A stretch of DNA of 64,000 bases from Desulfosporosinus acididurans (GTDB lineage Bacteria; Bacillota; Desulfitobacteriia; Desulfitobacteriales; Desulfitobacteriaceae), in NCBI RefSeq assembly GCF_001029285.1, contig NZ_LDZY01000004.1:124001-188000 (forward strand), written 5' to 3'. How positions within the stretch are numbered: position 1 is the first letter of the stretch; every line of letters starts with the position of its first letter. The position numbers and the translations under genes were made by a program. A model generated the notes under the pieces. That model did not search any database and was not told the origin of the DNA. It was given only the letters and a program-made list of their open reading frames with translations. Of the stretch, positions 11,171 to 27,553 are shown in pieces.

Positions 11171-11379
11171 TGTTTCCTTTAAACTTTCTGGAAAAGCAAT
11201 AGCTTCAAGGGAGGAGCCTTGCCAATAATAGTAGACTCTCCCCTCTTGCCGTCTATGGTTTGTGAGATTCGGCGATCCATGGCCTAAGGCTCGCCTAGCT
11301 TATTATACAAATGTTTACAAAACCTTAACGTTCAAGGGTGTGTCTTTTAGTATAATAAGCTTGAAAGTGGGTGCCAAAA

Positions 11380-12084
11380 ATGTCTCATGATCTAGATATA
11401 GTCGATAAGTTAATTTCTTTAATGTCCTCAGGAAAATATAACGCCCATGATAGACTGCCCTCTGAAAATGAAATTGCCGATACTTACGAGGTTCCTCGAA
11501 TTACAGCGCGGAAAGCTTACGAAAGACTTGAAGAAATGGGATATATCTATAAAAAGCAGGGAAAAGGGAGCTATGTCAAAGACCGATATCAGCAAATTGA
11601 ACTTGTTCTGACAGGAGATGTGAGTTTCAGTCAAAAAATGATCGAGAAAGGGTATGACTTCCAATCGAAAACGATCTTTTGCCAAGAAATTAAGTACAAC
11701 AAGAAAATTTATAATTACTTAGAAACTACTAAAGAGGATAAGATCTTCAAAGTCGGCAGGTTAAGGTATATTGATCGTCAACCAATAGCGCTGCATGTCT
11801 CTTATCTTGCAAAATCGGTCTTTGAGGATATTGATGACGTCGGCAGGGATATAACCTCAATGTTTCAGTATTATCACAGTAAAGGGTATACACAATTTGA
11901 CTCTAAACCCAGCGTCTTAAGTGTTTCTTTTCCCACGGCGTCTCAGAGAACATTGTTTAATTGTCCTCATTTGATTCCTCTCTTAGTTTTGGAATCGGGT
12001 TGCATGGATAAGAAAACGGGTAAGGTATTGGAGTATCTCAAAATTTATTATCGAAGCGATTGCTTTTCTTATGTTCTATGTTAA
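11380..12084 (+). CDS. phnF: GntR-family regulator of the phosphonate cluster (PhnF-like)
   Basis: DNA-binding repressor with an effector domain. The N-terminal winged helix reads RLPSENEIADTYEVPRITARKAYERLEEMGYIYKKQGKGSYV, typical of GntR proteins; residues 85-230 form a UTRA ligand-binding domain (FKVGRLRYIDRQPIALHVSYL). Position directly before phnG-phnM makes it the likely local regulator, as in other phn clusters. I chose ATG at 11380 because AAAGTGGG lies 8 bases before it; GTG at 11371 is an in-frame alternative. A strong terminator (12147) separates it from phnG, so the cluster has its own promoter. Possible operator: the inverted repeat at 12306. Confidence 0.88.
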   Translation: MSHDLDIVDKLISLMSSGKYNAHDRLPSENEIADTYEVPRITARKAYERLEEMGYIYKKQGKGSYVKDRYQQIELVLTGDVSFSQKMIEKGYDFQSKTIFCQEIKYNKKIYNYLETTKEDKIFKVGRLRYIDRQPIALHVSYLAKSVFEDIDDVGRDITSMFQYYHSKGYTQFDSKPSVLSVSFPTASQRTLFNCPHLIPLLVLESGCMDKKTGKVLEYLKIYYRSDCFSYVLC

Positions 12085-12367: not shown

Positions 12368-12793
12368 ATGATTAGAAAACAGCGAACAGAGATCTTAATT
12401 AAAGGTTCTGCGGAAGTTTCTGCAAAATTAGCCCATGAAATACTCCAGATTTATGACGTTAGGACCATTGAAGAAAGCAAGAATAGTTTAGTCATGGTAA
12501 AAGTTCGGGAGGGCGCTCAGCGAAGCTTATTTTACTTAGGTGAGGTACTTGTTACCGAATGTAAGGTGATGATCAACGGTTTTTTGGGAATTGGTATGGT
12601 CAAAGGGCATGAACCAAACTTAGCCTATAACCTGGCAATTATTGATGCGGCCTATAATGGGGATTTGCCAGAAACCAAAGCATGGACTAAGGCCTTATTG
12701 CAAGAACAATTTCACATTAACGAAAACTATGAGGCCCTAAAGAAGCAAGTCTTAAAAACAAAAGTTAACTTTAACACCATGGATGTTCAATAA
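12368..12793 (+). CDS. phnG: C-P lyase subunit PhnG
   Basis: Small subunit of the PhnGHIJ core complex, needed with PhnI and PhnL to attach phosphonate to the ribose C1 of ATP with release of adenine. The 141-residue length and motifs RTEILIKGSAEVSAKLAH and VLVTECKVMINGFLGIGMVKG fit the family (the EC.V.. G.G...G segment is typical). ATG at 12368 follows AAGGATGG. It is the first gene of the phnGHIJK-M run; phnH follows 16 bp later. Confidence 0.93.
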   Translation: MIRKQRTEILIKGSAEVSAKLAHEILQIYDVRTIEESKNSLVMVKVREGAQRSLFYLGEVLVTECKVMINGFLGIGMVKGHEPNLAYNLAIIDAAYNGDLPETKAWTKALLQEQFHINENYEALKKQVLKTKVNFNTMDVQ

Positions 12794-12809
12794 GAGGGGG
12801 GATAAGTAG

Positions 12810-13406
12810 ATGAAACTAGATCTCGTTCATGATATCCAAACAGCTTATCGCAAAACGCTTGCTTCCATGTCTCGGCCGGGCTTAATCAAAAACCTTCGTG
12901 ATCAGGCAGATAAGGTGGCTATGGAGATTGGATGTTTTAACTCAACTCTAGTATTGGCCCTGATGCTTTTCGATACAGAAGTAACCTTTAAAATATGCTC
13001 GGAACATGAAGCTGAGATGGCCAAACTTATTAATCAGTTAACGTACGCCAAAGCAACAGAACTGGAGAGTGCCGATTATATTCTGATCTTACATGACTCG
13101 AAACCGGGGGATTTGGAGGAGGCTTTTCAAATAGCCCGCAGCGGAGATTTGCTGGACCCTCACAAAGGAGCAACCTTGATCATTGAAACAGACGTCGTGA
13201 GTAATGAACGGAACCTCACTCTGAAAGGGCCCGGAATCGAAAAAGAAAACTATATGGATGTAACGCTGAACGGCCAGTGGGTTGATTGGCGGGAAGAAAA
13301 AAACTCTGAATATCCTCTGGGAATTGATTTAATCTTTACAGATCGGGAAGATAACATTTTGTGCCTCCCGCGGACAACTCAAATTATAAAACAGGTGGTT
13401 GGATAG
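12810..13406 (+). CDS. phnH: C-P lyase subunit PhnH
   Basis: Core-complex subunit with a PLP-transferase-like fold but no cofactor; it stabilises the PhnGHIJ assembly. The N-terminus VHDIQTAYRKTLASMSRPG matches the family signature, and the C-terminal YPLGIDLIFTD followed by LPRTTQI is characteristic. At 198 residues it has normal length. The start follows AGAGGGGG. It abuts phnI with no gap, indicating translational coupling. Confidence 0.94.
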   Translation: MKLDLVHDIQTAYRKTLASMSRPGLIKNLRDQADKVAMEIGCFNSTLVLALMLFDTEVTFKICSEHEAEMAKLINQLTYAKATELESADYILILHDSKPGDLEEAFQIARSGDLLDPHKGATLIIETDVVSNERNLTLKGPGIEKENYMDVTLNGQWVDWREEKNSEYPLGIDLIFTDREDNILCLPRTTQIIKQVVG

Positions 13407-14528
13407 ATGGGGTATGTTGCTGTTAAAGGCGGGACTCTTGCCATTGAAGAATCGCTGAAACGACTAAAATATGAGCGGTTAAAAAAGGGAGTCGTTGTTG
13501 ATTGTCAGAGAATTGAAAGCGGAATGCGCTGCTTAATTGACCAAGTTATGTCGGAAAGCAGTCTATATAATGAAACGTTGGCAGCTTTGGCCATAAAGCA
13601 AGCGGAAGGAAGTCCTGAAGAAGCTGTCTTTTTAATGAGAGCCTACCGTTCAACTCTGCCACGCAATCATTATTCCCGCGTTGTTGAGCCTGAGGACATG
13701 ATGGTCGAACGCAGAATATCTGCAAGTTTTAAAGATATACCCGGCGGACAGATTTTAGGTGCTGCTAATGATTATACTCATCGTTTGCTTGACTTTAACT
13801 TAAGTGAGGAAAGCGATGAAGAGGCGATCAATTGGGTATGTGATTATGTCCTGGAAGGCGGAGAAGGTAACGATAGAACAGATTTGGCTAATTTACCTAA
13901 GGTGGTGGATTATCTGCGGGAAAATGGTTTGATGTCAGTTTGTGATAATGATAACCACGAACCGGATGATGTTACAAAAGAGAGTCTCCAGTTTCCGGCA
14001 AGCCGAAGTGAACGGCTGCAGATTTTAACCCGAGGGCAGACAGGAGCTGTTACGTCTCTGGGGTATGTAGCCTTACGCAGTTTCGGGGCCCTTCATCCTA
14101 CGGTGGGGGAACTGCGAATGGGAAACCTGCCCCTTTATGTGGATAATCCCTTTAATGAACAAAATGAAAAAGACGATGGTTACTACATCGGTGAAATTAA
14201 AGTCACGGAAGTCGAGACATTGTTTCCAGAAGATATTCAGAACATTAATGGGGAAAAAGAGATTGAATTTAAGCTCGGCTATGGACTTTGTTATGGCCAA
14301 AATGAGACAAAAGCAATTGCCATGAGTATTCTTGACCACTGTTTAGAAGTGGGTGAATCAGAGCATGCCATTAATGACGAGGAGTTTGTCCTGCTGCATA
14401 TCGATTCCGTCGAGTCTCCGGGTTTTATCTCACATCTGAAATTGCCCCACTATGTAACGTTTCAGTCCAAGTTGGACAGCGTGCGACAATCGAAAAAAGA
14501 ACCTGCCCTAAACCAAGGGAAAGAATGA
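13407..14528 (+). CDS. phnI: C-P lyase subunit PhnI
   Basis: Catalytic nucleosidase subunit of the core complex that displaces adenine from ATP in favour of the phosphonate. MGYVAVKGGTLAIEESL and the SERLQILTRGQTGAVTSLGY segment are strongly conserved PhnI signatures, as is LRSFGALHPTVGELR. The 373-residue length is normal. The ATG directly follows the phnH stop; phnJ begins 12 bp after the end. Confidence 0.96.
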   Translation: MGYVAVKGGTLAIEESLKRLKYERLKKGVVVDCQRIESGMRCLIDQVMSESSLYNETLAALAIKQAEGSPEEAVFLMRAYRSTLPRNHYSRVVEPEDMMVERRISASFKDIPGGQILGAANDYTHRLLDFNLSEESDEEAINWVCDYVLEGGEGNDRTDLANLPKVVDYLRENGLMSVCDNDNHEPDDVTKESLQFPASRSERLQILTRGQTGAVTSLGYVALRSFGALHPTVGELRMGNLPLYVDNPFNEQNEKDDGYYIGEIKVTEVETLFPEDIQNINGEKEIEFKLGYGLCYGQNETKAIAMSILDHCLEVGESEHAINDEEFVLLHIDSVESPGFISHLKLPHYVTFQSKLDSVRQSKKEPALNQGKE

Positions 14529-14540
14529 GGAGCTGCATTC

Positions 14541-15386
14541 ATGAAGATTGAATATAATTTCGCTTTTTTTGATGAAGGGTCTAAACGGGAAATTAGAAGG
14601 GCAACCTTAAAAGCTATTGCCATCCCCGGTTATCAGGTGCCTTTTGCTTCCAGGGAAATGCCCATCGCCAGAGGATGGGGAACGGGAGGACTTCAATTAA
14701 CCCTTTCCCTGGTGGGAAAAGAAGATATTCTGAAAGTTATTGATCAAGGCTCTGATGAATCGGTAAATGCCGTCAATATTAAGAAACTAATTGCCCTTAC
14801 AACAGGAATTGTTGTTACAGACGAAACGACTGAAGCGACCATCATCCAATCGAGACATCGGATCCCCGAAACCCCCCTGCAAGAAGATCAGATCCTCGTT
14901 CTCCAAGTACCGATACCAGAACCTCTTAGGTATTATGAACCGAGTGAATATGAAACTAAAAAACTTCATGCGGAACATGAATACAGTGGTGCTTGGCTCA
15001 TGCTCTTTGAGCAGATCGTGAACTATGGGGCCATGTCCACAGGAGCAGATCATCCTGTTATGGTTCACAGCAGATATGTGATGGCACCCAGCCCTATTCC
15101 GAGATTCGATAACCCCAAGCTGAATCAGAATAAAGCCTTGATTCTTTTGGGCGCCGGACGTGAAAAGAAGGTTTATGCAGTACCTCCCTACACAAAGGTT
15201 GCGTCTCTGGATTTTGCGGACTATCCCTTTAGGGTTGAAACGTTTCAGGATAAGTGCTGCAGATTATGTGGAGCTAAGGACGTATTTCTGGATGAACTAT
15301 TGAATGATATTACGGGTGAAGCCTTATATCAATGCAATGACACCAGCTATTGCCTGCAAAGAATGAATGGAATTTCAAAAGAATGA
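14541..15386 (+). CDS. phnJ: alpha-D-ribose 1-methylphosphonate 5-phosphate C-P lyase PhnJ
   Basis: Radical-SAM enzyme that breaks the C-P bond, giving the hydrocarbon and ribose 1,2-cyclic phosphate 5-phosphate. YNFAFFDEGSKREIRRA at the N-terminus and the REMPIARGWGTGGLQ segment are PhnJ signatures. The C-terminal cysteines that bind the 4Fe-4S cluster are present (KCCRLCGAKD, then YQCNDTSYC). Two regions rich in His and Tyr (HAEHEYSGAWL) also match. At 281 residues it is complete. ATG follows GAGGAG. Oxygen sensitivity suits the anaerobic setting. Confidence 0.97.
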   Translation: MKIEYNFAFFDEGSKREIRRATLKAIAIPGYQVPFASREMPIARGWGTGGLQLTLSLVGKEDILKVIDQGSDESVNAVNIKKLIALTTGIVVTDETTEATIIQSRHRIPETPLQEDQILVLQVPIPEPLRYYEPSEYETKKLHAEHEYSGAWLMLFEQIVNYGAMSTGADHPVMVHSRYVMAPSPIPRFDNPKLNQNKALILLGAGREKKVYAVPPYTKVASLDFADYPFRVETFQDKCCRLCGAKDVFLDELLNDITGEALYQCNDTSYCLQRMNGISKE

Positions 15387-15397
15387 GGGATTGCAAT

Positions 15398-16243
15398 ATG
15401 GATGATTCCGAACGGCCTGTTTTAGCGGTGCGAAATATTAATAAACAATATGGTCAAGGATGTGTCAATTGCCGTGGGGCAAAAGGGGAGGGTTTGCTGA
15501 AAAATTATTGTCCCGTTTGTGGTACGGTATATGCCTGCAGGGATATCTCCTTTGAAGTTTATGCGGGAGAGATTTTAGGAATCGTGGGAGAAAGCGGCAG
15601 CGGTAAGTCGACGATGATGGAGTGCCTTTATTTTGACCAGGAAGTAAGCAGCGGCGAAGCTTATATTGCCTCCTATAAAGGCGGTGAAACAAATGTCTTC
15701 GAGGAATCTTCACAGCAGAAACGCTATATAAGGAATCATCTCATGGGAAAGGTGTATCAAAACCCCCTCATGAGTCTCAAGATGAATTTCTCCTCCATTG
15801 GAAATATCGCCGAGAAGCTGATTTCAGCCGGAAACAGGAATGTGGGACAGATGAAGGTCCGCGGGGAAGAACTGTTGGAGCACGTTAATATCCCTGTCTA
15901 CCGTATGAAAGAAGCTCCTAAGAACTTCTCGGGAGGGATGCAGCAGAGGGTTCAAATTGCTAAAGCTTTGTCGAACAATCCGCCGCTGCTGCTCCTCGAT
16001 GAGGTCACGACAGGATTGGACTTATCCGTTCAAGCCAGTGTCCTGGATTTAATCAAGAGCATTCAGAGACAGTTAAAGATTTCTATGATTATCGTGTCTC
16101 ATGATTTAGGTGTTATCAGAATGTTGGCTGATCGAACTCTTGTTATGCTTGACGGACAGGTAATTGAACAAGGTTTAACGGATCAAATTTTAGAAGATCC
16201 CCAGCATGGTTATACTCAGAAACTTGTCCAATCCTTGTTATAA
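15398..16243 (+). CDS. phnK: C-P lyase ATP-binding protein PhnK with Cys-rich insertion
   Basis: ABC-type ATPase that docks on the PhnGHIJ core and drives conformational change. Walker A GESGSGKST, signature FSGGMQQRVQIAKA, Walker B LLLLDEVTTGLD and the H-loop VSHD are intact. Odd feature: between the Tyr that normally stacks on adenine (QYGQG) and the first core strand (CRDISFEV) lies an insertion with Cys at CVNC and CPVCGTVYAC, which resembles a zinc ribbon or small metal site and is absent from the E. coli protein. I chose ATG at 15398 (GAGGGA before it); upstream in-frame codons overlap phnJ. Length about 281. Confidence 0.93.
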   Translation: MDDSERPVLAVRNINKQYGQGCVNCRGAKGEGLLKNYCPVCGTVYACRDISFEVYAGEILGIVGESGSGKSTMMECLYFDQEVSSGEAYIASYKGGETNVFEESSQQKRYIRNHLMGKVYQNPLMSLKMNFSSIGNIAEKLISAGNRNVGQMKVRGEELLEHVNIPVYRMKEAPKNFSGGMQQRVQIAKALSNNPPLLLLDEVTTGLDLSVQASVLDLIKSIQRQLKISMIIVSHDLGVIRMLADRTLVMLDGQVIEQGLTDQILEDPQHGYTQKLVQSLL

Positions 16244-16269: not shown

Positions 16270-17460
16270 ATGTTTATAATCACTAATGCTCAGATCATTA
16301 CGGAAGAGTCAATCTTGACAGGGTATGACCTTCTGATCAAAGACGATCGAATTTTCAAGATCGTGGCCCAAGGTGAAGACGCTCTAACCGAGGAACTTCA
16401 AGAAGACATTCAAGTTATTGACGGGGCAGGCGGCTATGTCGCACCGGGGTTTATTGATATTCACTCGGACTATATTGAGACAATGGCAGCACCAAGACCG
16501 ACCTGCCTAATGGATTTTCAAATGAGTCTTCGCGAAACTGAGAGACAGTTAGTCTCTCATGGAATTACCACTATGTTCCATTCTTTATCCCTTTTTAAAG
16601 ACACTGAGTATAAGCGCAAACCCATCCGCAATCCTGAAAATGTTCGGAAATTCATCGATTTAGTTGCCGGAACTGGAACCAACCATTACTTGATACGACA
16701 TAAATTTCACGCCCGGTTTGAAATAGACAATGTTAACGACGTGGAGGAATTAAAGGAGTATATCGAGGAGAAAAAGGTTCAACTTGTTTCCTTCATGGAC
16801 CATTCACCTGGCCAGGGACAATACCGGGATTTAGAGGTTTATAGGAATATGGTCAAAAGCTATAACGATTTAGAGGATCAGGTGATTGATCAAATTATTG
16901 ACCGTCATCAAAGGAAGGAAAAAGTAACGATTGATGGGATTCGGCAAATCGCAGAACTGGCTCGGGAAAAGGGTATCGCTATTGCGTCCCATGATGATGA
17001 CACTGTCGGAAAATTAGACTTGGTACAAAGCTGGGGAGTGACAATCAGTGAATTTCCCATCTCTTTGGCAATAGCTCAAAAAGCCAAAAAGAAAGGATTA
17101 TTCACCATGGCAGGTGCCCCCAATATTCTCTTGGGAGGTTCCCACAGTGGAAATTTATCTGCAGCTGAAGCAATCCTAGCGAACGCTATTGACATCCTCT
17201 GCAGTGATTATTATCCGCCTGGGATGCTGCATGCTGTGTTCATGCTTCATGAAACGCATAAATTTGGTCTTGTCGATGCTTTCAAATTAGTAACCCTAAA
17301 TCCGGCCAAAGCAGTCTCTCTGGATCAGGAAATCGGCTCCATCAGAGAAGGAAAAAAAGCAGACCTCTTGATTATACAAATGATTGAAGAGAATTATCCA
17401 GTTATTACCGCGGTAATCATTGACGGGAAGTTAAAGCAAACAACATCGTATTCAGCATGA
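16270..17460 (+). CDS. phnM: alpha-D-ribose 1-methylphosphonate 5-triphosphate diphosphatase PhnM (first copy)
   Basis: Amidohydrolase-superfamily enzyme that removes pyrophosphate from the ribose-phosphonate triphosphate before PhnJ acts. Metal and substrate motifs are in place: PGFIDIHSDYIE, HGITTMFHSL, MDHSPGQGQ, SHDDDT, and CSDYYPPGML. At 396 residues it is full length. ATG follows GAAGGAG. A second phnM lies at 22695; the two share the same motifs but differ clearly elsewhere. Confidence 0.95.
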   Translation: MFIITNAQIITEESILTGYDLLIKDDRIFKIVAQGEDALTEELQEDIQVIDGAGGYVAPGFIDIHSDYIETMAAPRPTCLMDFQMSLRETERQLVSHGITTMFHSLSLFKDTEYKRKPIRNPENVRKFIDLVAGTGTNHYLIRHKFHARFEIDNVNDVEELKEYIEEKKVQLVSFMDHSPGQGQYRDLEVYRNMVKSYNDLEDQVIDQIIDRHQRKEKVTIDGIRQIAELAREKGIAIASHDDDTVGKLDLVQSWGVTISEFPISLAIAQKAKKKGLFTMAGAPNILLGGSHSGNLSAAEAILANAIDILCSDYYPPGMLHAVFMLHETHKFGLVDAFKLVTLNPAKAVSLDQEIGSIREGKKADLLIIQMIEENYPVITAVIIDGKLKQTTSYSA

Positions 17461-17497: not shown

Positions 17498-18121
17498 ATG
17501 ATCGAAAGGCTTAGTCAGAAACCTTGTATTCATGAGAACTGCCAGCTGGACAATGTTGAATTGGGTCAGTATACAGAAGTAGGGATTTATAACGTCTTGG
17601 AAAATGTCAAATTGGCTGATTTTTCCTATACAGGGCCCTTTTGCATTGCCCAAAACGCCGAAATCGGCAAATTTGCCAATATTGCGGCGATGGTAAGAAT
17701 CGGACCTACCGATCATCCCATGGATAGGCCTACCCTGCATCATTTTACCTACCGCCGCAGGAAGTATGGTTTGGCAGAATCCGATGATGAACAGTTCTTT
17801 CAATGGAGGAAGGAGCAGAGGCTCGTAATTGGCCATGATACTTGGATTGGACATGCTGCCATCATTATGCCTGGTGTGAAAATCGGCAATGGAGCGGTGG
17901 TAGGCAGTGGTGCAGTGGTTACGAAGGATGTGGATCCCTATACTGTTGTAGTCGGAGTGGAGGCTAAACCCATCAAGAAACGATTTTCTGAAGAGTCTGT
18001 TCAAATACTTGAGGAGATTAAGTGGTGGGACTGGTCCTATGAAATGATTAAAGAAAGGCTTAATGATTTTTATCTTCCTATCCATGAATTTCTAGAGAAG
18101 TATAAAAAAGCAGGTGCGTAA
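17498..18121 (+). CDS. hexapeptide-repeat transferase of phosphonate clusters
   Basis: Left-handed beta-helix protein of the phosphonate-associated transferase family, seen in many phn operons; probably an acyltransferase but the substrate is not known. Visible: imperfect hexapeptide turns from about residue 20 to 60, an insertion with [13 protein letters not shown], then [29 protein letters not shown] with the catalytic-type His. The 207-residue length fits. It abuts phnL (stop and ATG touch), so the two are coupled. It resembles xenobiotic and chloramphenicol acetyltransferases in the insertion; context argues against resistance. Confidence 0.88.
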
Positions 18122-18829
18122 ATGGAAGAAATATTAGTTGTCCAGGATTTAACCAAATCCTTTATCATTCACAATTTAGCTAAGCACATCGAAGCGCTTC
18201 ATGATATTTCCCTTAACCTAAAAGGAGGTGAATTCGTCGGGATTACAGGGAAAAGCGGCAGCGGAAAATCAACGGTCTTTAAGTGCATATATCGTACTTA
18301 TGTACCCCAGAATGGACAAATTTGGTATAACTCGCAAAAATATGGCTTTGTAAATTTAGCAGAACTCTCAGAACGACAAATGATCTATCTTCGGAAACAT
18401 GAAATCGGTTACGTATCACAGTTTCTAAATATAATGCCGCGGACAACCGCACGGGAACTGGTAAAACAAGCCGTTTTAGAAATGGGATCTGGTGAAGATT
18501 ATGCCAATATGGAAGCTCAGCGAATGCTGGAACATTTTGAATTGGACAAAGAATTATGGGATTGTTATCCCGGAACCTTTTCCGGCGGTGAAAAGCTGCG
18601 CTTAAATATTGCCAGGGCTATGGTCAAGCGTCCTAGGTTACTGCTTCTGGATGAACCTACTGCCAGTTTGGATCATGCTTCAAAAATAAAAGTGCGGGAA
18701 CTGATTGAGCAATTGAAACGAGAAGGAACAACGATGATGGGAATCTTTCATGACCTGGAATTTATGGAAAACCTCTGTACTCGGGTTTATACAATGAGTA
18801 ATGGGATATTACATGATCTTCAAATTTAA
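18122..18829 (+). CDS. phnL: C-P lyase ATP-binding protein PhnL
   Basis: ABC-type ATPase required with PhnG, PhnH and PhnI for ribose-phosphonate formation; in known structures it dimerises on PhnK. Walker A GKSGSGKST, Q-loop YVSQF, signature FSGGEKLRLNIARA, Walker B LLLLDEPTASLD and H-loop are complete. At 235 residues it matches E. coli PhnL. The ATG directly follows the preceding stop, with only AGGTG as ribosome site, so translation is probably coupled. Confidence 0.94.
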   Translation: MEEILVVQDLTKSFIIHNLAKHIEALHDISLNLKGGEFVGITGKSGSGKSTVFKCIYRTYVPQNGQIWYNSQKYGFVNLAELSERQMIYLRKHEIGYVSQFLNIMPRTTARELVKQAVLEMGSGEDYANMEAQRMLEHFELDKELWDCYPGTFSGGEKLRLNIARAMVKRPRLLLLDEPTASLDHASKIKVRELIEQLKREGTTMMGIFHDLEFMENLCTRVYTMSNGILHDLQI

Positions 18830-18939
18830 CCTAAATATTACAATTGTTTAATGGGAACATAATTATTGTTAGGTAAAATACAGATAAGGCTTATGGACAT
18901 CGCAATCATATTTTAAACATCGAGAGGAGAATAAAAAAC

Positions 18940-20010
18940 GTGAAAAAAGCCACTTTATCGGTCATGGCAGTTCTTCTAATGTCTTCCCTGCTGGCGGGAT
19001 GCGGCACTGCCGCTTCTTCAAGCTCATCTGCAAATTCTGGTTCAGGTTCAGGTGTTAAAGAGCCTGCAACAATTACCATCGCCTGGCTGCCTAATAATTC
19101 AGGAGATAATGAAAAGGCTTTTCGTGAGGAATTTGACCAGATCATCGCAAAAGCAACAGGAAAAAAAGTTGAAAATAAATTGACTACTGATTATGCTATA
19201 GCCATTTCAGCCTTGGAAAGTGGAGACGCTCAATTAGGGTATTTCGGACCGAATGAATACATTGTCTCACATGCTAAAGATCCCAAGGTCATACCTTTGG
19301 TGGTGGAAAGCGGAGATTCAGGGACTTTGAACGATGCCCTTTACCACAGCCGTTTTCTCGTAAAAAAAGGCAATGAAGATCAGTACAAATCGGGTGACAG
19401 TTACGACATTGATAACATAGCAGGAAAAAAAATGTCCTTCGTTTCCACCAGCTCGACATCCGGTTTTAATATGCCTGCCGCAGCAATACTGGGGAAATTC
19501 AACAGTCAGGACAAGTGGAAAAGTCTTACCAAAGATGACCTGGCCCAAGGCGGGAGCGGAAAATTTTTCAGCCAAGTTCTCTTTGCCGGCTCACACCAAT
19601 TGTCCTTAGTAAATGTACTTACGGGCAAATCTGATGTTTCAGCAGTTGATGATCTTGATGTAGCCCAATATGTAACTCTCAGCTCAGGAAAAGACAATGA
19701 GACTGGGGCTGTATATACAGTTAAACAGGGTGCCGATGCTCCATTTAACACTCTTGCCGGCGCTCAATTTGAGATCATTAAATCCATACCGGTCTTTAAC
19801 ACACCCCTTGAAGCCAACAGCGCAGTGCTGAGTCAAAAAACCCTGGACGAAATAACTCAGGCACTTACCTCTGATGAGACAACAAAGGATACCAAGATAT
19901 TTGCTCCGAAAGGTTCTCAAGGATCTGTCTTTGTCCAGCCCCACCGCTTCTTGAAAGTTGATGATTCCTGGTACGATCCCATGAGAAAAGTTCTTGGCTA
20001 TTCAAAATAG
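18940..20010 (+). CDS. phnD: phosphonate-binding lipoprotein PhnD
   Basis: Extracytoplasmic binding protein that captures phosphonates for the PhnCE transporter. The signal peptide ends in the lipobox LLAGC, so it is tethered to the outer face of the membrane, followed by a Ser/Gly-rich linker. The mature part begins ITIAWLPNNSGDN and includes YFGPNEYIVSH and FVSTSSTSGFNMP, typical of PhnD/SsuA-type type II binding proteins. 356 residues. The start (GTG at 18940) follows AGAGGAG. A 110-bp gap precedes it and a stem-loop follows it. Confidence 0.93.
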   Translation: MKKATLSVMAVLLMSSLLAGCGTAASSSSSANSGSGSGVKEPATITIAWLPNNSGDNEKAFREEFDQIIAKATGKKVENKLTTDYAIAISALESGDAQLGYFGPNEYIVSHAKDPKVIPLVVESGDSGTLNDALYHSRFLVKKGNEDQYKSGDSYDIDNIAGKKMSFVSTSSTSGFNMPAAAILGKFNSQDKWKSLTKDDLAQGGSGKFFSQVLFAGSHQLSLVNVLTGKSDVSAVDDLDVAQYVTLSSGKDNETGAVYTVKQGADAPFNTLAGAQFEIIKSIPVFNTPLEANSAVLSQKTLDEITQALTSDETTKDTKIFAPKGSQGSVFVQPHRFLKVDDSWYDPMRKVLGYSK

Positions 20011-20066
20011 AAGCAATAGTTTAAGTAACTAGTAATTATTGTTTTTCAATTAAGTAGTTAAGGTTT

Positions 20067-20101
20067 GGGGGAGAGGGGCGTTGCCTTGACGCCTCTCTCC
20101 C
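20067..20101 (+). other. intercistronic stem-loop after phnD
   Basis: GGGAGAGGGGCG pairs with CGCCTCTCTCCC (12 bp, one G-U) across a short loop. No U-tract follows. Such hairpins after binding-protein genes usually protect the upstream mRNA or partly terminate, keeping PhnD more abundant than the membrane subunits. Confidence 0.7.
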
Positions 20102-20122
20102 AATAAGAAAGGGGGACTATGA

Positions 20123-20944
20123 ATGAAACTGGAACTAGGTGTGAACCGAGAATTTTGTGAACCTTTGTTGGAGTTAAAACATGTCACCAAGTATTATCAT
20201 GGTGCGGCACCGGCCCTGGAAGACATCAATTTTTCGGTTGCGGAGGGAGAGTTTATCTCTGTTATAGGCCCATCCGGTGCCGGGAAATCCACCCTTCTCC
20301 GTTGTATTAACCGGATGATTGAAGCGACCAGCGGCGAGATTTCCTTTGATGGAGTCCTTATTTCGAAACTGAAGAAACGAGACCTGAGAAAGCTGAGAAC
20401 AAGGATCGGCATGATATTTCAGCATTATAATTTAGTTGATAAGTTATCAGTCATTGAGAATGTTCTTCATGGCAGGTTAGGTTACAAATCCACCCTTGCC
20501 GGGGTAATGGGACGGTATAGCCCAGAAGAAAAACAACAAGCGATGAGGATTATTGACTTATTAGGTTTGCATGACCAGGTCTATAAACGCTGTGACCAAC
20601 TAAGCGGCGGTCAGAAGCAGCGGGTTGGTATTGCCAGGGCTTTAATTCAAGATCCCAAGCTGATTTTATGTGATGAGCCCATTGCATCCTTAGATCCCAA
20701 TTCAGCCAAAATTATTATGGATCACCTCAGAGATGTTTCTGCTCAGATGGGCATAACAGTTATTGTTAATTTGCATCAAGTCAGTGCTGCTCTCAAATAT
20801 TCGGATCGCATTATCGGTGTCAATCAGGGAAAAATCGTTTTCGACGGCTCCCCAAGTGCTTTAACTGCCGAAAAAATCGCAGAAATTTATGGGTCGGAGT
20901 CCAATGATCTCATGGTTGAATTAGGAGAACGCTATGCAATCTGA
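20123..20944 (+). CDS. phnC: phosphonate ABC transporter ATPase PhnC
   Basis: Energises phosphonate import with two PhnE permeases. Walker A GPSGAGKST, Q-loop MIFQHYNLV, signature LSGGQKQRVGIARA, Walker B LILCDEPIASLD and H-loop VNLHQV are present; QHYNLVDKLSVIENVLHGRLG is characteristic of PhnC. 273 residues. The ATG at 20123 has GGGGG 7 bases before; a closer ATG at 20119 is out of frame. Its end overlaps phnE by 11 bp. Confidence 0.95.
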   Translation: MKLELGVNREFCEPLLELKHVTKYYHGAAPALEDINFSVAEGEFISVIGPSGAGKSTLLRCINRMIEATSGEISFDGVLISKLKKRDLRKLRTRIGMIFQHYNLVDKLSVIENVLHGRLGYKSTLAGVMGRYSPEEKQQAMRIIDLLGLHDQVYKRCDQLSGGQKQRVGIARALIQDPKLILCDEPIASLDPNSAKIIMDHLRDVSAQMGITVIVNLHQVSAALKYSDRIIGVNQGKIVFDGSPSALTAEKIAEIYGSESNDLMVELGERYAI

Positions 20945-21719
20945 TATTTTTGCTAAACGCAAAAAGGACAGTCTGATATTTTTTTCCTTATTAATAGTGG
21001 TTACCGTTGGCTCGGTCGTCATTACCCAGTATGATGTGTCGAAAGGGTTTACCAGTCTTCTTAAGGCTTTTATCTGGGGAGGTTCCAATTTTTATCCCGA
21101 TGGTAAGTCACTGACCATATTGCCTGATGTACTGCGAAAATTATGGGATACGATCCTGATGTCTATTGCGGCAACGACAGTTGCCACGGTTTTCGCAACG
21201 CTTTTGGCTTTGGTTGGTTCCCGAACCACAAGGATGAACAGAGTGTTTAGTCTGGTTGCCCGGGGCATTGCCTCACTCTTTCGCAACATTCCTCTCGTCG
21301 CTTGGGCCATGGTCTTAATGTTAGCTTTTAGTCAAAGCTCAATTACAGGCTACTTGGCTCTTTTTTTAGGATCGTTTGGGTTTCTGTCAAGAGCCTTTAT
21401 TGAAACCATTGACGAAGTGTCCAACGACTCCGTTGAAGCCTTGTCAGCTACCGGGGCCAGCTATTCCCATATAATTTTTCAATCAGTTTTGCCGTCCAGT
21501 CTCCCCCAGATGATCAGTTGGATATTATTTATGATTGACACGAATATTCGTGATGCCACCTTAGTTGGTCTTCTAACAGGCACAGGAATCGGGTTTTCCT
21601 TTGATTTGTACTATAAGAGTTTTAATTTTCATGCCGCAAGCCTTGTCGTGATTTTAATTGTCATTACTGTAATTCTTATTGAAATGGTTTCCAATACTAT
21701 CAGAAGGGTGATTATGTGA
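20934..21719 (+). CDS. phnE: phosphonate ABC transporter permease PhnE (first)
   Basis: Integral membrane channel subunit. About six membrane segments; the coupling-loop EAA motif appears as EALSATGASYSHIIFQSVLPSSLPQ, and the N-terminal half has the usual VATVFATLLALVGSR. 261 residues. It overlaps phnC by 11 bp and the second phnE by 4 bp, so all three are translationally coupled. Confidence 0.94.
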   Translation: MQSDIFAKRKKDSLIFFSLLIVVTVGSVVITQYDVSKGFTSLLKAFIWGGSNFYPDGKSLTILPDVLRKLWDTILMSIAATTVATVFATLLALVGSRTTRMNRVFSLVARGIASLFRNIPLVAWAMVLMLAFSQSSITGYLALFLGSFGFLSRAFIETIDEVSNDSVEALSATGASYSHIIFQSVLPSSLPQMISWILFMIDTNIRDATLVGLLTGTGIGFSFDLYYKSFNFHAASLVVILIVITVILIEMVSNTIRRVIM

Positions 21720-22540
21720 AGAAGATTGAGGAAGCAATTATACCCTCGAAACCCTTGACTAGGGAGTCTTTTACCATGTGGATATTATTGCTTGTTTTAT
21801 CCCTGTTGACTATCTATGCCCTGGCCACCATTGATTACACGAGTGTGGATATGGGAAAGGCAATGGCTGATACTCTCAATAATTTCAAAACTATATTTTT
21901 CCATCCTGCAGCTCACCGGCTTAGCTTGTGGGACGCATTTTACGAAGTTTTAATAACCATGGGCTTGGCATTTTTAACGACCTTGTTTGGCGGTATCATT
22001 GCTATGCTCCTGGGATTGTTGGCCGCCCAGAATTTGGCGCCAAAACAAGTTACCAATATTATCAAGGGTTTTGTCGCTTTTATTCGTGCAGTTCCCAGCA
22101 TCTTATGGGTTTTGATCTTTGCCGTGGCGGCGGGCCTGGGCAGTGTGGCTGCCGTTATTGGTTTAACCTTTCACTCTGTCAGCTATTTGACGAAGGCTTA
22201 TTCCGAGTCTTTTGAAGAATTGGACAGAAGCGTTATTGAAGCCTTGATGGCCAGCGGGGCGAATTGGTGGCAGATCATTTTTCAAGCGGTTATACCTTCC
22301 TCCGTTTCTTCCTTGCTGTCCTGGACGTTTATGAGATTTGAAATCAACTTCGCCAATGCTGTTGCCATGGGCGCTGCTGCCGGGGCAGCTGGAATCGGCT
22401 TTGATTTGTTTATGGACAGCGGCTTTTATTTTGATCTGAGGGAAATAGGACTGGTTACCTATTTTATTATAGCTTTCGCTCTAGTACTCGAAACGATCTC
22501 CACCAATTTGAAAAGTAAGATATTATTGAAAAAGGCTTAG
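21716..22540 (+). CDS. phnE: phosphonate ABC transporter permease PhnE (second)
   Basis: Second permease; the channel is probably a heterodimer of the two PhnE proteins. Six membrane segments and the EAA loop EALMASGANWWQIIFQAVIPSS are visible, with GAAAGAAGIGFDLFM near the C-terminus. 274 residues. GTG start overlaps the previous stop (GTGA). Separate, sequence-divergent PhnE pairs are common in Firmicutes. Confidence 0.93.
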   Translation: MKKIEEAIIPSKPLTRESFTMWILLLVLSLLTIYALATIDYTSVDMGKAMADTLNNFKTIFFHPAAHRLSLWDAFYEVLITMGLAFLTTLFGGIIAMLLGLLAAQNLAPKQVTNIIKGFVAFIRAVPSILWVLIFAVAAGLGSVAAVIGLTFHSVSYLTKAYSESFEELDRSVIEALMASGANWWQIIFQAVIPSSVSSLLSWTFMRFEINFANAVAMGAAAGAAGIGFDLFMDSGFYFDLREIGLVTYFIIAFALVLETISTNLKSKILLKKA

Positions 22541-22694: not shown

Positions 22695-23897
22695 GTGAGA
22701 ACAAAAAAGATTTGCATTTACAATGCCAAAATGATTCTGCCTGAGAAGGTTAGCAAAGGGCACATAATTTTAGAAGGAAATAGAATCATCGAGGTAGCGG
22801 AAAGTGATTTTTCCAGAGTGAAGTGTTATTCAGACCTGACGATGATTGATGCCGAAGAATGTTTTGTTATGCCGGGGATGATTGATCTTCACAGCGATGC
22901 TATCGAAAAGGAAATCCAGCCACGGCCCAATACTTTATTCCCCATTCATATGGCCTTTTATGAGTTAGAGAAGAAACTTACGGTCAGCGGTATTACAACT
23001 ATGTTTCATTCTCTTAGCTTAAGTGACGAATGGGGAGTAAGAAATCAAGAGATGGTTGTCGGTGTAATAAATAGCATCAACACCCTTAAAAATGCTCGTT
23101 CTATGATTAATCATAAGATTCATCTGCGCTACGAATTGACGTTTCTTGCCGGGCTTAAAGCCTTGGAAGGTCTTATTAAAAACAAGAGCATTGATTTAAT
23201 GTCGTATATGGATCATACGCCGGGGCAGGGACAGTTTAGAGATGCTGAAGCACTTGAAATTTTTACTCTCCAATCTTATGGCAAAAAAGAGCGGGAATTT
23301 GACGATTTTGTCGATAAAACCATCAAAAACCAATCACGAATTAATTGGGCCAAACTTACGGAACTATCCAAGATTGCCAAACATCAGGGGATTCCTTTAG
23401 CTTTTCATGACGATGATACTCAAGAGAAAATTGATACCCTCCTGGAATGTGAAGGGATCGTCAGTGAATTTCCTATTAATTTGGAAACAGCAGTCTATGC
23501 GGCATCAAAAGGAATTCACGTCTCTGTGGGAGCTCCTAATATTATTCGCGGAAAATCCCACAGCAACAATATGAGAGCGATAGATGCTATTCTCAATCAT
23601 GCGGCAGATATCATTTGTTCCGATTACCTGCCAAGTGCTATGCTTCCGGCAGTTTTTTCTTTAACGCAGGAAGGAATCGCGCTGAATGAGGCGGTTAAGA
23701 TGGTAACCTTAAATCCCGCTAAGGCTTTAAAAATTGACGCTGAGGTCGGTACCATTGAAGTCGGTAAATGTGCAGATTTAATTGTTGTGGAAATGCATCA
23801 GGACTATCCGATCCTTCGGAAAACCCTTGTGGGCGGGAGCACAGTATTTCAATCAGATTATAAGGCCTATAGTGAAAGAGTTGATAATGTATGTTAA
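22695..23897 (+). CDS. phnM: PhnM-family diphosphatase (second copy)
   Basis: Second amidohydrolase of the PhnM family. The same motifs as copy one are intact: PGMIDLHSDAIE, SGITTMFHSL, MDHTPGQGQ, FHDDDT and CSDYLPSAML. Differences: shorter N-terminal loops and a Cys/Ser-containing C-terminus. It opens the second part of the cluster after a 154-bp gap without an obvious terminator, and overlaps the acetyltransferase gene. The duplication may reflect a different phosphonate-nucleotide substrate or stage. The GTG start follows AAAGGGAG at a rather long 10 bases. Confidence 0.92.
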   Translation: MRTKKICIYNAKMILPEKVSKGHIILEGNRIIEVAESDFSRVKCYSDLTMIDAEECFVMPGMIDLHSDAIEKEIQPRPNTLFPIHMAFYELEKKLTVSGITTMFHSLSLSDEWGVRNQEMVVGVINSINTLKNARSMINHKIHLRYELTFLAGLKALEGLIKNKSIDLMSYMDHTPGQGQFRDAEALEIFTLQSYGKKEREFDDFVDKTIKNQSRINWAKLTELSKIAKHQGIPLAFHDDDTQEKIDTLLECEGIVSEFPINLETAVYAASKGIHVSVGAPNIIRGKSHSNNMRAIDAILNHAADIICSDYLPSAMLPAVFSLTQEGIALNEAVKMVTLNPAKALKIDAEVGTIEVGKCADLIVVEMHQDYPILRKTLVGGSTVFQSDYKAYSERVDNVC

Positions 23898-24331
23898 TCC
23901 GACAAGCTAGGGAGCAAGATCTGTCAAGTATAGTAAATCTTTTACAAGCCATGGACGGCGAGGAGAAGATCGATTACGGCGAAGCCGTAACCATATGGCA
24001 GAAAATGAAGGAGTATCCCTATTACAAAGTATTTGTAGTTGAAGACAGCGACCAGATAATCGCTGCCTGCAGTTTGATCATCTTGGAAAATTTGGGCCAT
24101 AGAGGAACTAAGCTTGCCCTTGCCGAAAGTGTGATTGTCGCTGCGAATTACAGAGGCTCTGGTATAGGCAGTATGCTGATGCACTTTATTATGGATGAAG
24201 CTAAGGAGGGAAATTGTTACAAGCTTATGCTTTCCAGCAATAAGAAAAGGCTGCAAGCCCATGCGTTTTATCAGAAGCTGGGCTTTCAACAACATGGGAT
24301 TAGTTTTGCTGTTGAACTTAATCAATACTAG
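23891..24331 (+). CDS. GNAT acetyltransferase (PhnO-like by position)
   Basis: N-acetyltransferase fold: MLIRQAREQDLSSIVNLL at the start, the acetyl-CoA loop NYRGSGIGSMLM (Q/RxxGxG/A type), and AHAFYQKLGFQQHG near the end. 146 residues. It overlaps phnM2 by 7 bp. PhnO of E. coli acetylates aminoalkylphosphonates; a like role is inferred from position only. Confidence 0.85.
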   Translation: MLIRQAREQDLSSIVNLLQAMDGEEKIDYGEAVTIWQKMKEYPYYKVFVVEDSDQIIAACSLIILENLGHRGTKLALAESVIVAANYRGSGIGSMLMHFIMDEAKEGNCYKLMLSSNKKRLQAHAFYQKLGFQQHGISFAVELNQY

Positions 24332-24440
24332 TTCATGGAGCTTGTGAGATCGGTTTTTTTTAAAAGCAGTGGGGCACTTCCGATTGTGGTAAGAGTCATG
24401 GAGGCGCACAAATGATGTTTAGCAAGACGAGGTGCGATTT

Positions 24441-25211
24441 ATGGAAATGAATTATACCGAGTATCTCGAATATGTTGAAATGGTACTTGCGGAAAAAGCG
24501 ATTAGAGAATATGCTCGCCAAATGAAGACTCTGGGAAAATTCAAAGAGTCTACGGAGGGCCTTTGGGAGCCGGTTCCTTATTCAGGCTATACTTTAATCA
24601 CGCCAACATATTTAGATGACGAGGAAAATGTTGATTCCTATAGATTTCTTAGCGATATTCGAGAAGAATTATTTTGGAATATCCCCTTTCCAGGGATAGT
24701 CTGGGCTCCTACGATTGCCCTTCATATGACCATAGGCCGGTTGATATCCGGCGATGTTTTTAAGCAGAGGATTAGAGATTCTCGTGAAGACGAATTTCTG
24801 CTGGCCTGTCATCAGATGTTTTCTCATATGTCTAGTACCGGATCGTTAAGCTATGAAATTAAGGGCTTATCTGTTTTTCCCCAAGGTGTCATAGCCGCTA
24901 TCGTTTCGCCGCTGAACGAAGGTGATTATTCAGGGCTGCAGGCAGTCAGAGACTATCTTTACGATGATAACAATCTTAAACAACTAGGTGTTGAGAGAAA
25001 ACGACGGTTTCAGGGACATATCAGTTTGTTTTATCTAGAGGAAGAGTTATCAGGAAAAGAAAGACGCATAATGGCTGATGCTGTCTCAGAAACAAACAGG
25101 AGATTTTTCAATGCTCCCTTACCCTTTAGGATTAAACAGGCTGAAGTTAGAAAATTCGATAACTTTTCGGAGTTTAACCGCCATGATCATTGGCCTGTTT
25201 TCAGGTTGTAG
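24441..25211 (+). CDS. 2H-type phosphoesterase-like protein in the phn cluster
   Basis: A protein of about 256 residues with the two signatures of the 2H phosphoesterase superfamily: HMTIGR (His95-x-Thr97) and HISLFY (His193-x-Ser195). That superfamily opens 2',3'- or 1'',2''-cyclic phosphates. It resembles the DUF1868 group. No signal peptide. Inference: it could open the cyclic phosphate left by PhnJ, the job done by PhnP (a metallo-beta-lactamase fold) elsewhere; no PhnP is in this window. ATG at 24441 is preferred because GAGG lies 8 bases before; GTG at 24432 is in frame but overlaps that site. It is followed 25 bp later by the IMPase-family gene. Confidence 0.75.
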   Translation: MEMNYTEYLEYVEMVLAEKAIREYARQMKTLGKFKESTEGLWEPVPYSGYTLITPTYLDDEENVDSYRFLSDIREELFWNIPFPGIVWAPTIALHMTIGRLISGDVFKQRIRDSREDEFLLACHQMFSHMSSTGSLSYEIKGLSVFPQGVIAAIVSPLNEGDYSGLQAVRDYLYDDNNLKQLGVERKRRFQGHISLFYLEEELSGKERRIMADAVSETNRRFFNAPLPFRIKQAEVRKFDNFSEFNRHDHWPVFRL

Positions 25212-25236
25212 CTATCTCCATGGTGAAAGGAATTAA

Positions 25237-26073
25237 GTGTTTATGAACGTCGAAGAACGAGAAATGTATGACTTCGCTAAACTCTTAATGTATTCTGCGG
25301 GGTCGAAGCTGAAACAAGAGCGCCGACAATCCGTCATTAAGGTTAAGGAAAAGACGTCTCAGATGGACCTGGTCACAGAACATGATTTACTTATTGAGAA
25401 ATACCTCATTGATGCTATTCTAAGTAACTATCCAGATCATAATATCCTTGCTGAGGAAAGCAGGGAACAGATTTGTTCGAAGCATAATGATGATTATGCG
25501 TGGGTTATCGACCCTATTGACGGTACGGTCAATTATTATAGGTTTGGCAAGGATTATGCCATATCCCTCGCTTTATATAAAAATGAAAATCCGATTTTTG
25601 GTTTAGTTTATGATGTCGCCAATAGCGAGATGTTTAGCGCAGGTCATGGTGAAGGAGCAATCATCAATGGACTCCCTTTAGACGCTCTGCCGGATTCCCA
25701 TGATAAGCTGAGCAAGGCGGTTGTTGGTATTAGTTTGAGAACTATGAGAGAATTCGCAAGTTTGGGTATGGATGTCATGGGGATGTTGTCCCAGGCCCAG
25801 GCCTATAGATATTTGGGCTGCGCCTCTCTGGAAATATGTAAAGTTGCCAACGGTGAATATGATTTGTTTATTTCGTCTAATGTCCATCAATGGGACATTG
25901 CCGCCGCCAGGATTTTTCTCGAACAACGTGGGGGAGAAGTTCTTATTCGAAGAAACAATGAGGACAGATCACCTTTTGGTAAATTATTAGTAGCTGCTTT
26001 TCGCTCGCCGTTAATATGGACAGAGGCTCGCGAATATCTTCCCCTTTGCCTGAGAGATAAGTTTGACGCGTAA
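25237..26073 (+). CDS. inositol-monophosphatase-family phosphatase
   Basis: Mg-dependent, Li-sensitive-type sugar or nucleotide phosphatase. Metal-site motifs are complete: LAEES (Glu73-Glu74), IDPIDGTVNY (92-97) and QWDIAAA (Asp220). 278 residues. The family includes SuhB, CysQ and fructose bisphosphatases, so the substrate cannot be read from sequence. Placement between a 2H and a PHP phosphoesterase at the end of a C-P lyase cluster suggests a phosphorylated ribose such as ribose 1,5-bisphosphate. GTG at 25237 is 6 bases after AAAGG; an in-frame ATG lies two codons on. Confidence 0.85.
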   Translation: MFMNVEEREMYDFAKLLMYSAGSKLKQERRQSVIKVKEKTSQMDLVTEHDLLIEKYLIDAILSNYPDHNILAEESREQICSKHNDDYAWVIDPIDGTVNYYRFGKDYAISLALYKNENPIFGLVYDVANSEMFSAGHGEGAIINGLPLDALPDSHDKLSKAVVGISLRTMREFASLGMDVMGMLSQAQAYRYLGCASLEICKVANGEYDLFISSNVHQWDIAAARIFLEQRGGEVLIRRNNEDRSPFGKLLVAAFRSPLIWTEAREYLPLCLRDKFDA

Positions 26074-26141
26074 TTTGCAGATAAAAAACATCGGTTCCTA
26101 TTTAAAATGGGAGTCTCACGAATGGATAAAAGGGTGATTTT

Positions 26142-26378
26142 ATGCTTCAATATGAAGAAATAATAAGAGAAGAGTCAAAGAGCATTTGTCGAGTATTAAC
26201 GTCCTATATGACAGAGAATGAGGCTTCGGTTTTTTCTGAAGACGTTGTTTTATTGAAGGAGAACTTTGGTAACAATCAAAATTCGTTCTTAAAAAGGGCT
26301 ATTACGATTGTTCGGACCGTGGTATTGATTCTTGCAGCATTAGCATTTCATTATTTTTTTCTGCTGCGATTCTTTTAG
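26142..26378 (+). CDS. small single-span membrane protein
   Basis: 78 residues: a charged N-terminal part rich in Glu and Ser, then one hydrophobic segment at about 52-76 (VRTVVLILAALAFHYFFLL) ending in an Arg-Phe-Phe tail. This is a tail-anchored topology. I do not recognise it. ATG is preceded by AAAAGGG. It lies between the IMPase-family and PHP genes, in the same direction. Confidence 0.55.
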   Translation: MLQYEEIIREESKSICRVLTSYMTENEASVFSEDVVLLKENFGNNQNSFLKRAITIVRTVVLILAALAFHYFFLLRFF

Positions 26379-26547
26379 CGTTAACAATAAGCTAGCTAAA
26401 TGATAGACGGCTGTGCAGCCGGACACTGATCACTTATAGTAGCTTTTTGTAACTTTGTTGGAACGAGCATCTCATTAACCGTATTTTTAAGGAATTAAAA
26501 GTTAACAGTTATTGAGAAAAAATGATTATAAAGGATGATTAGAAACT

Positions 26548-27408
26548 ATGATTGACTTACATGTTCATACGAAAATTTCTGATAATTCCTTAAGTATTGA
26601 TGAAGTCATCAGACAGGCAAAAGAAAAGGGAATTACTCATCTTGCCATTACAGATCATGATACCACAAAGGGGTTAAACGATGCTTTGTGCCTGGGAGCC
26701 GATTTAGGTGTTACCATCGTTCCGGGCATAGAAATATCAGCTTACGATTACGAGAGGAACAAGAGAGCTCATATTCTGGGTTTATATATCGAACCGGGCC
26801 ATTCTTCTCTGGATCGTCTTTGTACGCCTTTAATTGAAAGCAGGAAGCAAGCATCCTACGATATGTTCCTTAAGATTCTTGCGGCGGGGTATGAAATAAC
26901 CTGGGAGGATGTTCTGAAGTATGCTGGGGGGACTGGCGTTTATAAACAGCATTTAATGCATGCCTTATTGGATAAGGGGTATTGTGAGGCCATTTATGAT
27001 GACCTATATAAAAAACTTTTTCACCGTGGAAGTAGTACGCACCCCCAAGGTGAAGCCTTTGTTCCGTTAGAATACGTTGATGTTCGAGAGGCGATTCAGG
27101 CTGTTAGAGAAGCAGGAGGAATCCCTATTCTTGCCCATCCGGGACAACTGGATAATTTTGATGCCATTGATGAGTGGGCAGAAGAAGGACTTGGCGGGAT
27201 CGAAGTTTTTCATCCCAGCCATAATGACACTGACCGACGCCAATCCCTGCATTATGCACAGAAGCATAACTTAGTGATTACAGGCGGTTCGGATTTTCAC
27301 GGTTTTTATAGTGAAAAACCGGTAGAGTTAGGGTGTCCGGAATTGGGGCCAGAGTGTATTAAAGAACTTTCCTTAAGCTTAAAGAGTGCTTTCGCGAGCA
27401 TAGTTTAG
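26548..27408 (+). CDS. PHP-domain phosphoesterase closing the phn cluster
   Basis: Metal-dependent phosphoesterase of the PHP fold. Metal-ligand motifs occur in order: MIDLHVHTKISD, ITDHDT, VPGIEIS, AHILGL, ILAHPG and GGSDFHG. An insertion of about 90 residues after the first half is typical of the TrpH/YciV-type group. 286 residues. From memory, a PHP enzyme (PhnPP type) linked to a phn cluster in Eggerthella hydrolyses the cyclic ribose phosphate made by PhnJ; this protein may do the same or finish the step begun by the 2H protein. RNase AM-type activity on RNA 5' ends is the main alternative. ATG follows AAAGGATG; terminator at 27508. Confidence 0.85.
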   Translation: MIDLHVHTKISDNSLSIDEVIRQAKEKGITHLAITDHDTTKGLNDALCLGADLGVTIVPGIEISAYDYERNKRAHILGLYIEPGHSSLDRLCTPLIESRKQASYDMFLKILAAGYEITWEDVLKYAGGTGVYKQHLMHALLDKGYCEAIYDDLYKKLFHRGSSTHPQGEAFVPLEYVDVREAIQAVREAGGIPILAHPGQLDNFDAIDEWAEEGLGGIEVFHPSHNDTDRRQSLHYAQKHNLVITGGSDFHGFYSEKPVELGCPELGPECIKELSLSLKSAFASIV

Positions 27409-27481: not shown

Positions 27482-27507
27482 AAAAATCGAATAAAAATAT
27501 GATTTTG

Positions 27508-27553
27508 TAAAAGAGTGGATATGCTTCTATGGGAGAAGTTATCCACTCTTTTT
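27508..27553 (+). terminator. terminator of the phosphonate cluster
   Basis: AAGAGTGGATA and TATCCACTCTT form the stem, with an inner CTTCT/GAGAAG extension, followed by TTTT. It ends the run that began at phnG and also serves as a border to the leftward gene. Confidence 0.88.

Follow-up and report, generated by a model that had tools for sequence, protein, structure and literature searches.

In the established carbon-phosphorus (C-P) lyase pathway of phosphonate degradation, PhnJ yields 5-phosphoribosyl 1,2-cyclic phosphate (PRcP). E. coli leaves the pathway from this intermediate through PhnP and PhnN, ending in phosphoribosyl pyrophosphate (PRPP). A second exit uses PhnPP, a PHP-family phosphoesterase that we take to be Elen0235 of Eggerthella lenta and to be the protein meant by the family model NF041661 (phosphoribosyl 1,2-cyclic phosphate 1,2-diphosphodiesterase). 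Two later reports cite Elen0235 as hydrolyzing both bonds of a cyclic phosphodiester (PMC11656708, PMC5460133), and a review ties the 2H-superfamily protein RcsF to phn operons without phnP and proposes it as a PhnP substitute (PMC10574752). Here we analyze a complete phn cluster (positions 11371-27408, plus strand, from the list of open reading frames, ORFs) in a 64,000-nt stretch of the Desulfosporosinus acididurans genome, hereafter the window (contig C4, positions 124001-188000; genome G000, 4.64 Mb, with a completeness of 100% according to the estimating tool). In our proposal, to which we give a probability of roughly 0.6, the cluster closes on its 3′ side with a module for leaving the pathway without PRPP: a PhnPP-type PHP enzyme and a phosphatase of the inositol monophosphatase (IMPase) family, with a 2H-type protein as an optional member, would convert PRcP to ribose 5-phosphate and phosphate.

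Three phosphoesterase genes and one small gene stand behind the second phnM gene and a GNAT acetyltransferase gene, all on the plus strand and in line with the phn cluster. They encode a 2H-superfamily phosphoesterase-like protein of 256 aa (24441..25211), a phn-linked IMPase-family phosphatase of 276 aa (25243..26073), a 78-aa protein (26142..26378), and a PHP phosphoesterase of the PhnPP type (26548..27408), with gaps of 109, 31, 68, and 169 nt from the GNAT gene through to the PHP gene. An earlier note on this DNA had described the same four genes, calling the third a small membrane protein, and the ORFs agree; by hydropathy, the 78-aa product has a C-terminal hydrophobic stretch. The start given there for the 2H gene also holds: although the frame opens at GTG 24432, the relatives align from ATG 24441.

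The PHP protein (PF02811, E = 8.5e-12) has NF041661 as its best NCBIfam model, at 249.9 bits against a curated cut-off of 500 bits and with a margin of 107 bits over the next model, RNase RNM (143.1 bits), which is followed by nucleoside bisphosphatase (142.8 bits). In a sample of 398 genomes of the phylum, 20 of them with phnJ, some match to NF041661 occurs in 379; the eight highest (at least 219 bits) all lie on the phnJ contig, and the PHP protein of G281, at 171 bits, is also within its phn cluster. NF041661 was likewise the best model for all nine further PHP proteins scanned, eight of them phn-linked and one from a genome without a phnJ match (G357). Nine residues (H5, H7, D12, H37, E62, H75, H197, D249, and H251), presumably the PHP metal ligands, do not vary across an alignment of 10 phn-linked PHP proteins. 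The window protein thus resembles PhnPP in family, phn linkage, best family match, and conserved residues of the metal-ligand type, and differs from it in reaching only half of the cut-off score and in being accompanied by IMPase and 2H proteins. Two relatives (G033 and G009; L029:5961-6833 and L032:7750-8622) have a diverged PHP protein, 43% identical, in the same slot, with a PhoB-like response regulator beside it at L029. A plasmid of Mesobacillus foraminis carries a phn cluster with a PhnPP-like PHP protein (L163:4080-4958, 252 bits) and no IMPase among the genes listed, a list that may be incomplete.

Neither canonical exit enzyme was found over cut-off in the window's genome. For PhnN (TIGR02322, cut-off 156 bits), where all 80 candidates were scored, the better of two sub-threshold matches reached 50.3 bits in a 204-aa frame, which at a guess is a guanylate kinase; for PhnP (TIGR03307, cut-off 272.25 bits), the better of two reached 24.1 bits. 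The absence of both genes that the earlier note had reported for the window therefore extends to the whole genome, where copies elsewhere, which the note had named as speaking against its proposal, were searched for and none passed the cut-off. The same search over 34 genomes (the 20 with phnJ from the phylum sample, another 13 with phnJ from the window's family, and G040) gave no PhnN or PhnP over cut-off. The best PhnN-like score was 65.2 bits among the candidates scored, the scoring for PhnN being limited in 15 of these genomes to 72 of the first-look candidates. It could be argued that the canonical PRPP route is nevertheless served by distant, unrecognized PhnP- and PhnN-like enzymes encoded elsewhere in the genome, given the sub-threshold matches in the window's genome and the PhnP-like scores of 115-132 bits that three relatives show (131.7 in G009, 130.1 in G297, and 115.5 in G018, on contigs other than that of phn). 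Sub-threshold matches to PhnN or PhnP were also seen in 10 of 14 control genomes, with E. coli alone exceeding the cut-off, so weak matches are usual; moreover, a comparison of 26 loci against the E. coli proteins turned up no ORF whose best match was PhnN or PhnP. We therefore consider a hidden canonical route very improbable. Because PhnN and PhnP fall under the cut-off in all 34 genomes, and because PhnPP is the nearest match of the PHP protein, the sequences favor an exit that does not end in PRPP, as the earlier note had suggested.

From the gene content, the PhnN and PhnP scores, the conservation, and the active-site motif residues, all of which are observed, we infer the substrates and the order of reactions in this PRPP-free exit. 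The PHP enzyme would open the ring of PRcP and could also cleave the second ester. The IMPase would take the remaining C1 or C2 phosphate off the ribose bisphosphate, leaving ribose 5-phosphate and free phosphate as products in place of PRPP; if PRPP is needed, it could be remade by the ordinary PRPP synthetase. The 2H protein would be an optional second ring opener, with chemistry of the ADP-ribose 1″,2″-cyclic phosphate kind, feeding ribose 1,5-bisphosphate to the IMPase. Compared with the E. coli exit, the pathway would begin at the same intermediate, judged by its position, and would differ in its product as well as in lacking PhnP and PhnN over cut-off.

The composition of the module varies among relatives. 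The window's family comprises 45 genomes, 15 of them with phnJ, and provides 14 phn clusters with complete 3′ ends (G000, G024, G032, G035, G033, G012, G009, G015, G018, G008, G016, G023, G002, and G040); G011 and G042, in which a contig end cuts the cluster, were left out, and G040, whose phn genes lie on a short contig and whose genome gave no phnJ match, was added. PHP is encoded in 13 of these clusters, counting the diverged proteins of G033 and G009; an intact IMPase in seven (G000, G024, G012, G015, G018, G016, and G040); and an intact 2H protein in four (G000, G024, G032, and G040). Remnants of the IMPase gene persist in G008 and G023 and of the 2H gene in G016 and G023. These counts and the separate remnants point to PHP as the constant component and to IMPase and 2H as accessories that can be lost singly. 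They also bear on a reading of the earlier note's cassette in which 2H opens the ring, IMPase dephosphorylates, and PHP assists, the three genes working and evolving as one unit. G000, G024, and G040 carry the full set, intact and closely spaced, and they are the only ones of the 14 clusters to do so. IMPase is missing beside 2H and PHP in G032, an intact 2H is missing beside IMPase and PHP in G012, G015, G018, and G016, and a 2H protein of the window's kind occurs in no other genome of the phylum sample. We judge this reading improbable and dropped the idea of one conserved cassette.

What is newer here concerns the IMPase-family protein. Its assignment is clear (PF00459, 171.4 bits against a cut-off of 27, E = 3.5e-50), the DPIDGT and WDxAA motifs are present, and E71, D90, D93, T95, W217, and D218 occur in all 13 phn-linked sequences. 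As a query against the phylum sample, it found 112 matches in 96 genomes. The top seven (at least 135 bits), among them the query itself, are each part of a phn cluster and represent seven families; the next match scores 126.8 bits and belongs to a genome that has no phnJ match, and a further match, the short remnant in G008, is again in a phn cluster. In a tree of 13 phn-linked sequences (from seven families, with seven of the 13 from the window's own) and 24 others (23 next-best non-phn loci of 104 other matches, together with E. coli SuhB), the phn label changed twice against a shuffled mean of 11.0, and with one phn row per family it changed twice against a mean of 6.5; in neither case was any of 500 shuffles as low. 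Ser211 of the window protein aligns with Glu213 of the human enzyme, a position that is Ser in all 13 phn-linked sequences, none of which has the Glu or Gln of inositol-specific IMPases, and that among the 24 others is Glu in 16, Thr in five, Ser in two, and Ala in one. According to a published study of IMPases, this position is Glu or Gln in inositol-specific IMPases and Asp, His, Ser, or Thr in enzymes that use fructose 1,6-bisphosphate, a shorter loop being given as a second mark (PMC2080633). The serine would thus favor a sugar bisphosphate as the substrate. The protein shares the family profile and the metal-site and catalytic motif residues with IMPase, SuhB, and the dual fructose bisphosphatase-IMPase enzymes of PF00459, and differs in the serine and in its phn linkage; its closest relative of solved structure scores 119.9 bits. 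A search of the open-access literature found nothing linking phnJ with inositol monophosphatase.

Across the 20 phnJ genomes of the phylum, PHP and IMPase occur together in four (G000, G308, G422, and G453), PHP without an intact IMPase in five (G008, with its remnant, G266, G281, G314, and G395), and IMPase without PHP in three (G113, G165, and G187, in the last of which the contig ends just after); in two more (G230 and G242), a contig end cuts the neighborhood. The two genes adjoin in G012, G015, G018, G308, G453, and G422. This distribution raises the question of whether PHP alone is the whole exit, as in Eggerthella, with IMPase and 2H as passengers or as enzymes for other phosphate esters. 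PHP without IMPase is indeed common, extending in the window's family to G035, G033, G009, and, with 2H, G032; IMPase and 2H come and go, leaving remnants; and the Eggerthella enzyme is cited as acting in two steps (PMC11656708). Against this, the IMPase subfamily belongs to phn clusters in seven families, where its position varies, and all four intact and two remnant 2H genes found are in phn clusters. Because both track phn so closely, passengers are not expected, and we regard a PHP-only exit as less likely than the module.

Several observations weigh against the PRPP-free module of PHP and IMPase with optional 2H. The NF041661 cut-off is reached in none of the 398 genomes, and we therefore name the PHP protein PhnPP-like, with a function that may differ from that of PhnPP, and not a certified member of the family. 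The genomes in which PHP stands without an intact IMPase belong here as well, and the IMPase remnants beside a retained PHP gene in G008 and G023 imply that the IMPase step is dispensable there. In the phn cluster of G002 (L039, L166), comparison with the window proteins found neither PHP nor IMPase nor 2H in the 38 kb examined. The phn-linked IMPases were not recovered as one clade: bootstrap support for it was 6% and 2% in the two trees (although the approximately unbiased test did not reject it, p-AU 0.13), and L129 and L133, whose genomes have no phnJ match, fell among or beside them. The tree with one row per family placed a non-phn row nearest to the window IMPase by path, the window branch being long. 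Thr and Ser recur at position 213 in a neighboring non-phn group, so the serine alone is no mark of phn linkage. The PhnP-like matches in three relatives count on the same side, as do two results on the 2H protein given below, namely its low-confidence structural model and its lack of a DUF1045 match. In view of the low bootstrap values and the intermixed L129 and L133, the phn-linked IMPases as a proven single clade were dropped.

In the searches made, the 2H protein came from phn clusters of the window's family alone. Its two HxT/S motifs, H95-M-T and H193-I-S/T, are invariant in all four intact members. The window protein itself falls below all Pfam cut-offs (LigT_PEase, E = 0.17), whereas two relatives are at or over theirs (L042, LigT_PEase, 23.9 against 23.3 bits; L043, AKAP7_NLS, 24.4 against 24.4 bits). 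An AlphaFold2 model built from four sequences had a mean predicted local distance difference test score (pLDDT) of 38.2, and a search of solved structures with the protein and its profile gave nothing credible. The gene was found in six of the 45 family genomes (four intact, two fragments), the same six of 82 genomes of the class, and one of 398 in the phylum, the window's own; all six loci are within phn clusters. A scan of genome contigs with the 2H alignment gave four loci (three intact, one fragment), its two peptide patterns reaching close relatives only, and a search of plasmids gave none. We dropped the assignment of the protein to DUF1045 (PF06299), to which four members gave no match at E values up to 10, a negative tempered by HMMER filters that drop most weak matches.

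Its closest described counterparts are RcsF and DUF1045 of proteobacterial phn operons, which in our reading are one family. The window protein shares with them the 2H superfamily and membership of a phn cluster, and resembles them as a proposed PhnP substitute, but a profile comparison of its four sequences with a single DUF1045 protein gave nothing significant (hhalign probability 1%, a weak test). The settings differ as well: on a Paracoccus plasmid, an annotated 2H protein of DUF1045 stands beside phnN in the phn cluster, whereas the window cluster has PHP and no phnN. The 2H protein is probably a second ring opener. In the open-access literature, 2H phosphoesterase and carbon-phosphorus lyase were found together only as a citation in a reference list (PMC3840354). 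The earlier note knew of no combination of 2H and IMPase; the 2H half of this had been anticipated, as the review shows (PMC10574752), while the IMPase link is both less expected and better supported. 2H proteins in phn clusters are thus already known, and the window's would, on its profile scores, be one without a DUF1045 match.

The variation in the phylum suggests a broader scheme, which we offer tentatively. The exit could be interchangeable, with the IMPase as a ribose bisphosphatase providing a shared second step and the ring opener being swappable among PHP, a metallo-beta-lactamase other than PhnP, 2H, and perhaps, without IMPase, a CbiR-like TIM barrel, in each case ending in ribose 5-phosphate and phosphate. 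In G113, a protein of the metallo-beta-lactamase fold (L109:7164-7931) directly follows the phn-linked IMPase; its best model is NF041851, at 129.9 of 400 bits, and the PhnP model has no match in that genome. In six of the 20 phnJ genomes (G186, G224, G226, G290, G297, and G446), a xylose-isomerase-like TIM barrel follows phnM (L111:7700-8620, L114:11096-12082, L101:9231-10166, L105:10205-11041, L099:9576-10673, and L110:11866-12954), in the slot that PHP or IMPase occupies elsewhere. All five of these proteins scanned with Pfam belong to PF01261, and all six resemble the phosphodiesterase CbiR weakly (27-36 bits, cut-off 105). This TIM barrel may be yet another exit enzyme.

The window cluster starts with a GntR/UTRA regulator (11371..12084, plus strand, as are all genes below; PF00392 and PF07702 over cut-off), PhnF by position, which scores 91.1 bits with the PhnF model TIGR02325, below the cut-off of 156.8 and not its best family. 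The core C-P lyase genes phnG, phnH, phnI, phnJ, and phnK follow (12368..16243), phnJ being identified by PF06007 (468.5 bits; contig C4, 138550-139365) and the others named from order, length, and sequence. Next come the first phnM copy (16270..17460; TIGR02318, 413.9 bits, over the cut-off of 390.55), a hexapeptide acetyltransferase of phosphonate clusters (17498..18121; TIGR03308, 278.8 bits, over 201.65), and an ATPase and phosphonate transporter set named from order and sequence, phnL-phnD-phnC-phnE-phnE (18122..22540), an order also kept in relatives. The second phnM copy (22695..23897) passes NF011990 (442.7 bits, cut-off 233) and falls below the TIGR02318 cut-off at 364.2 bits. The cluster thus has two phnM genes; several relatives keep the second kind alone, and at L027 and L029 an additional, diverged phnM copy adjoins PHP. 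The GNAT acetyltransferase (23891..24331; PF00583, 64.7 bits) overlaps the end of the second phnM by 7 nt and occupies the slot of E. coli phnO; it is PhnO by position only, scoring 31.5 bits with the PhnO model against a cut-off of 142.

The 78-aa protein between IMPase and PHP matched no Pfam family at cut-off and has relatives only in G024 (86%) and G008 (45%) among 15 family loci searched. Between the PHP gene and a convergent RluD-like gene lies a terminator-like hairpin with a T run (27509..27553, plus strand), spotted by eye and missed by the pattern scan; the stretch 27500-27565 folds at -26.6 kcal/mol (z = -5.83), and none of 200 shuffles was as stable. Pattern scans found promoters no better than in shuffles (20 against 16.1, standard deviation 4.9) and terminators barely above them (8 against 4.9, standard deviation 2.7). 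The sequence separating the 78-aa gene from PHP is more stable when folded than most of its shuffles (z = -2.43, one of 200 as good), so PHP might be regulated separately.

How the cyclic ribose phosphate is disposed of when bacteria with C-P lyase lack PhnP and PhnN is only partly known. The interpretation in the earlier note is partly supported: it holds in outline, for an exit that bypasses PhnP, PhnN, and PRPP, but misplaces the weight, as the PhnPP-like enzyme would carry the exit and the three genes do not form a fixed cassette. That enzyme is of a known kind. The newer part is the IMPase subfamily, whose association with phn clusters in seven families of the phylum sample makes it a concrete candidate for a missing step. 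If the proposal is correct, its role as a ribose 1,5- or 2,5-bisphosphate phosphatase would be a newly assigned step of phosphonate catabolism. Phosphate is predicted to be freed at once by such an exit, which would matter to phosphate-starved cells, and surveys that count phnN or phnP would overlook degraders of this type.

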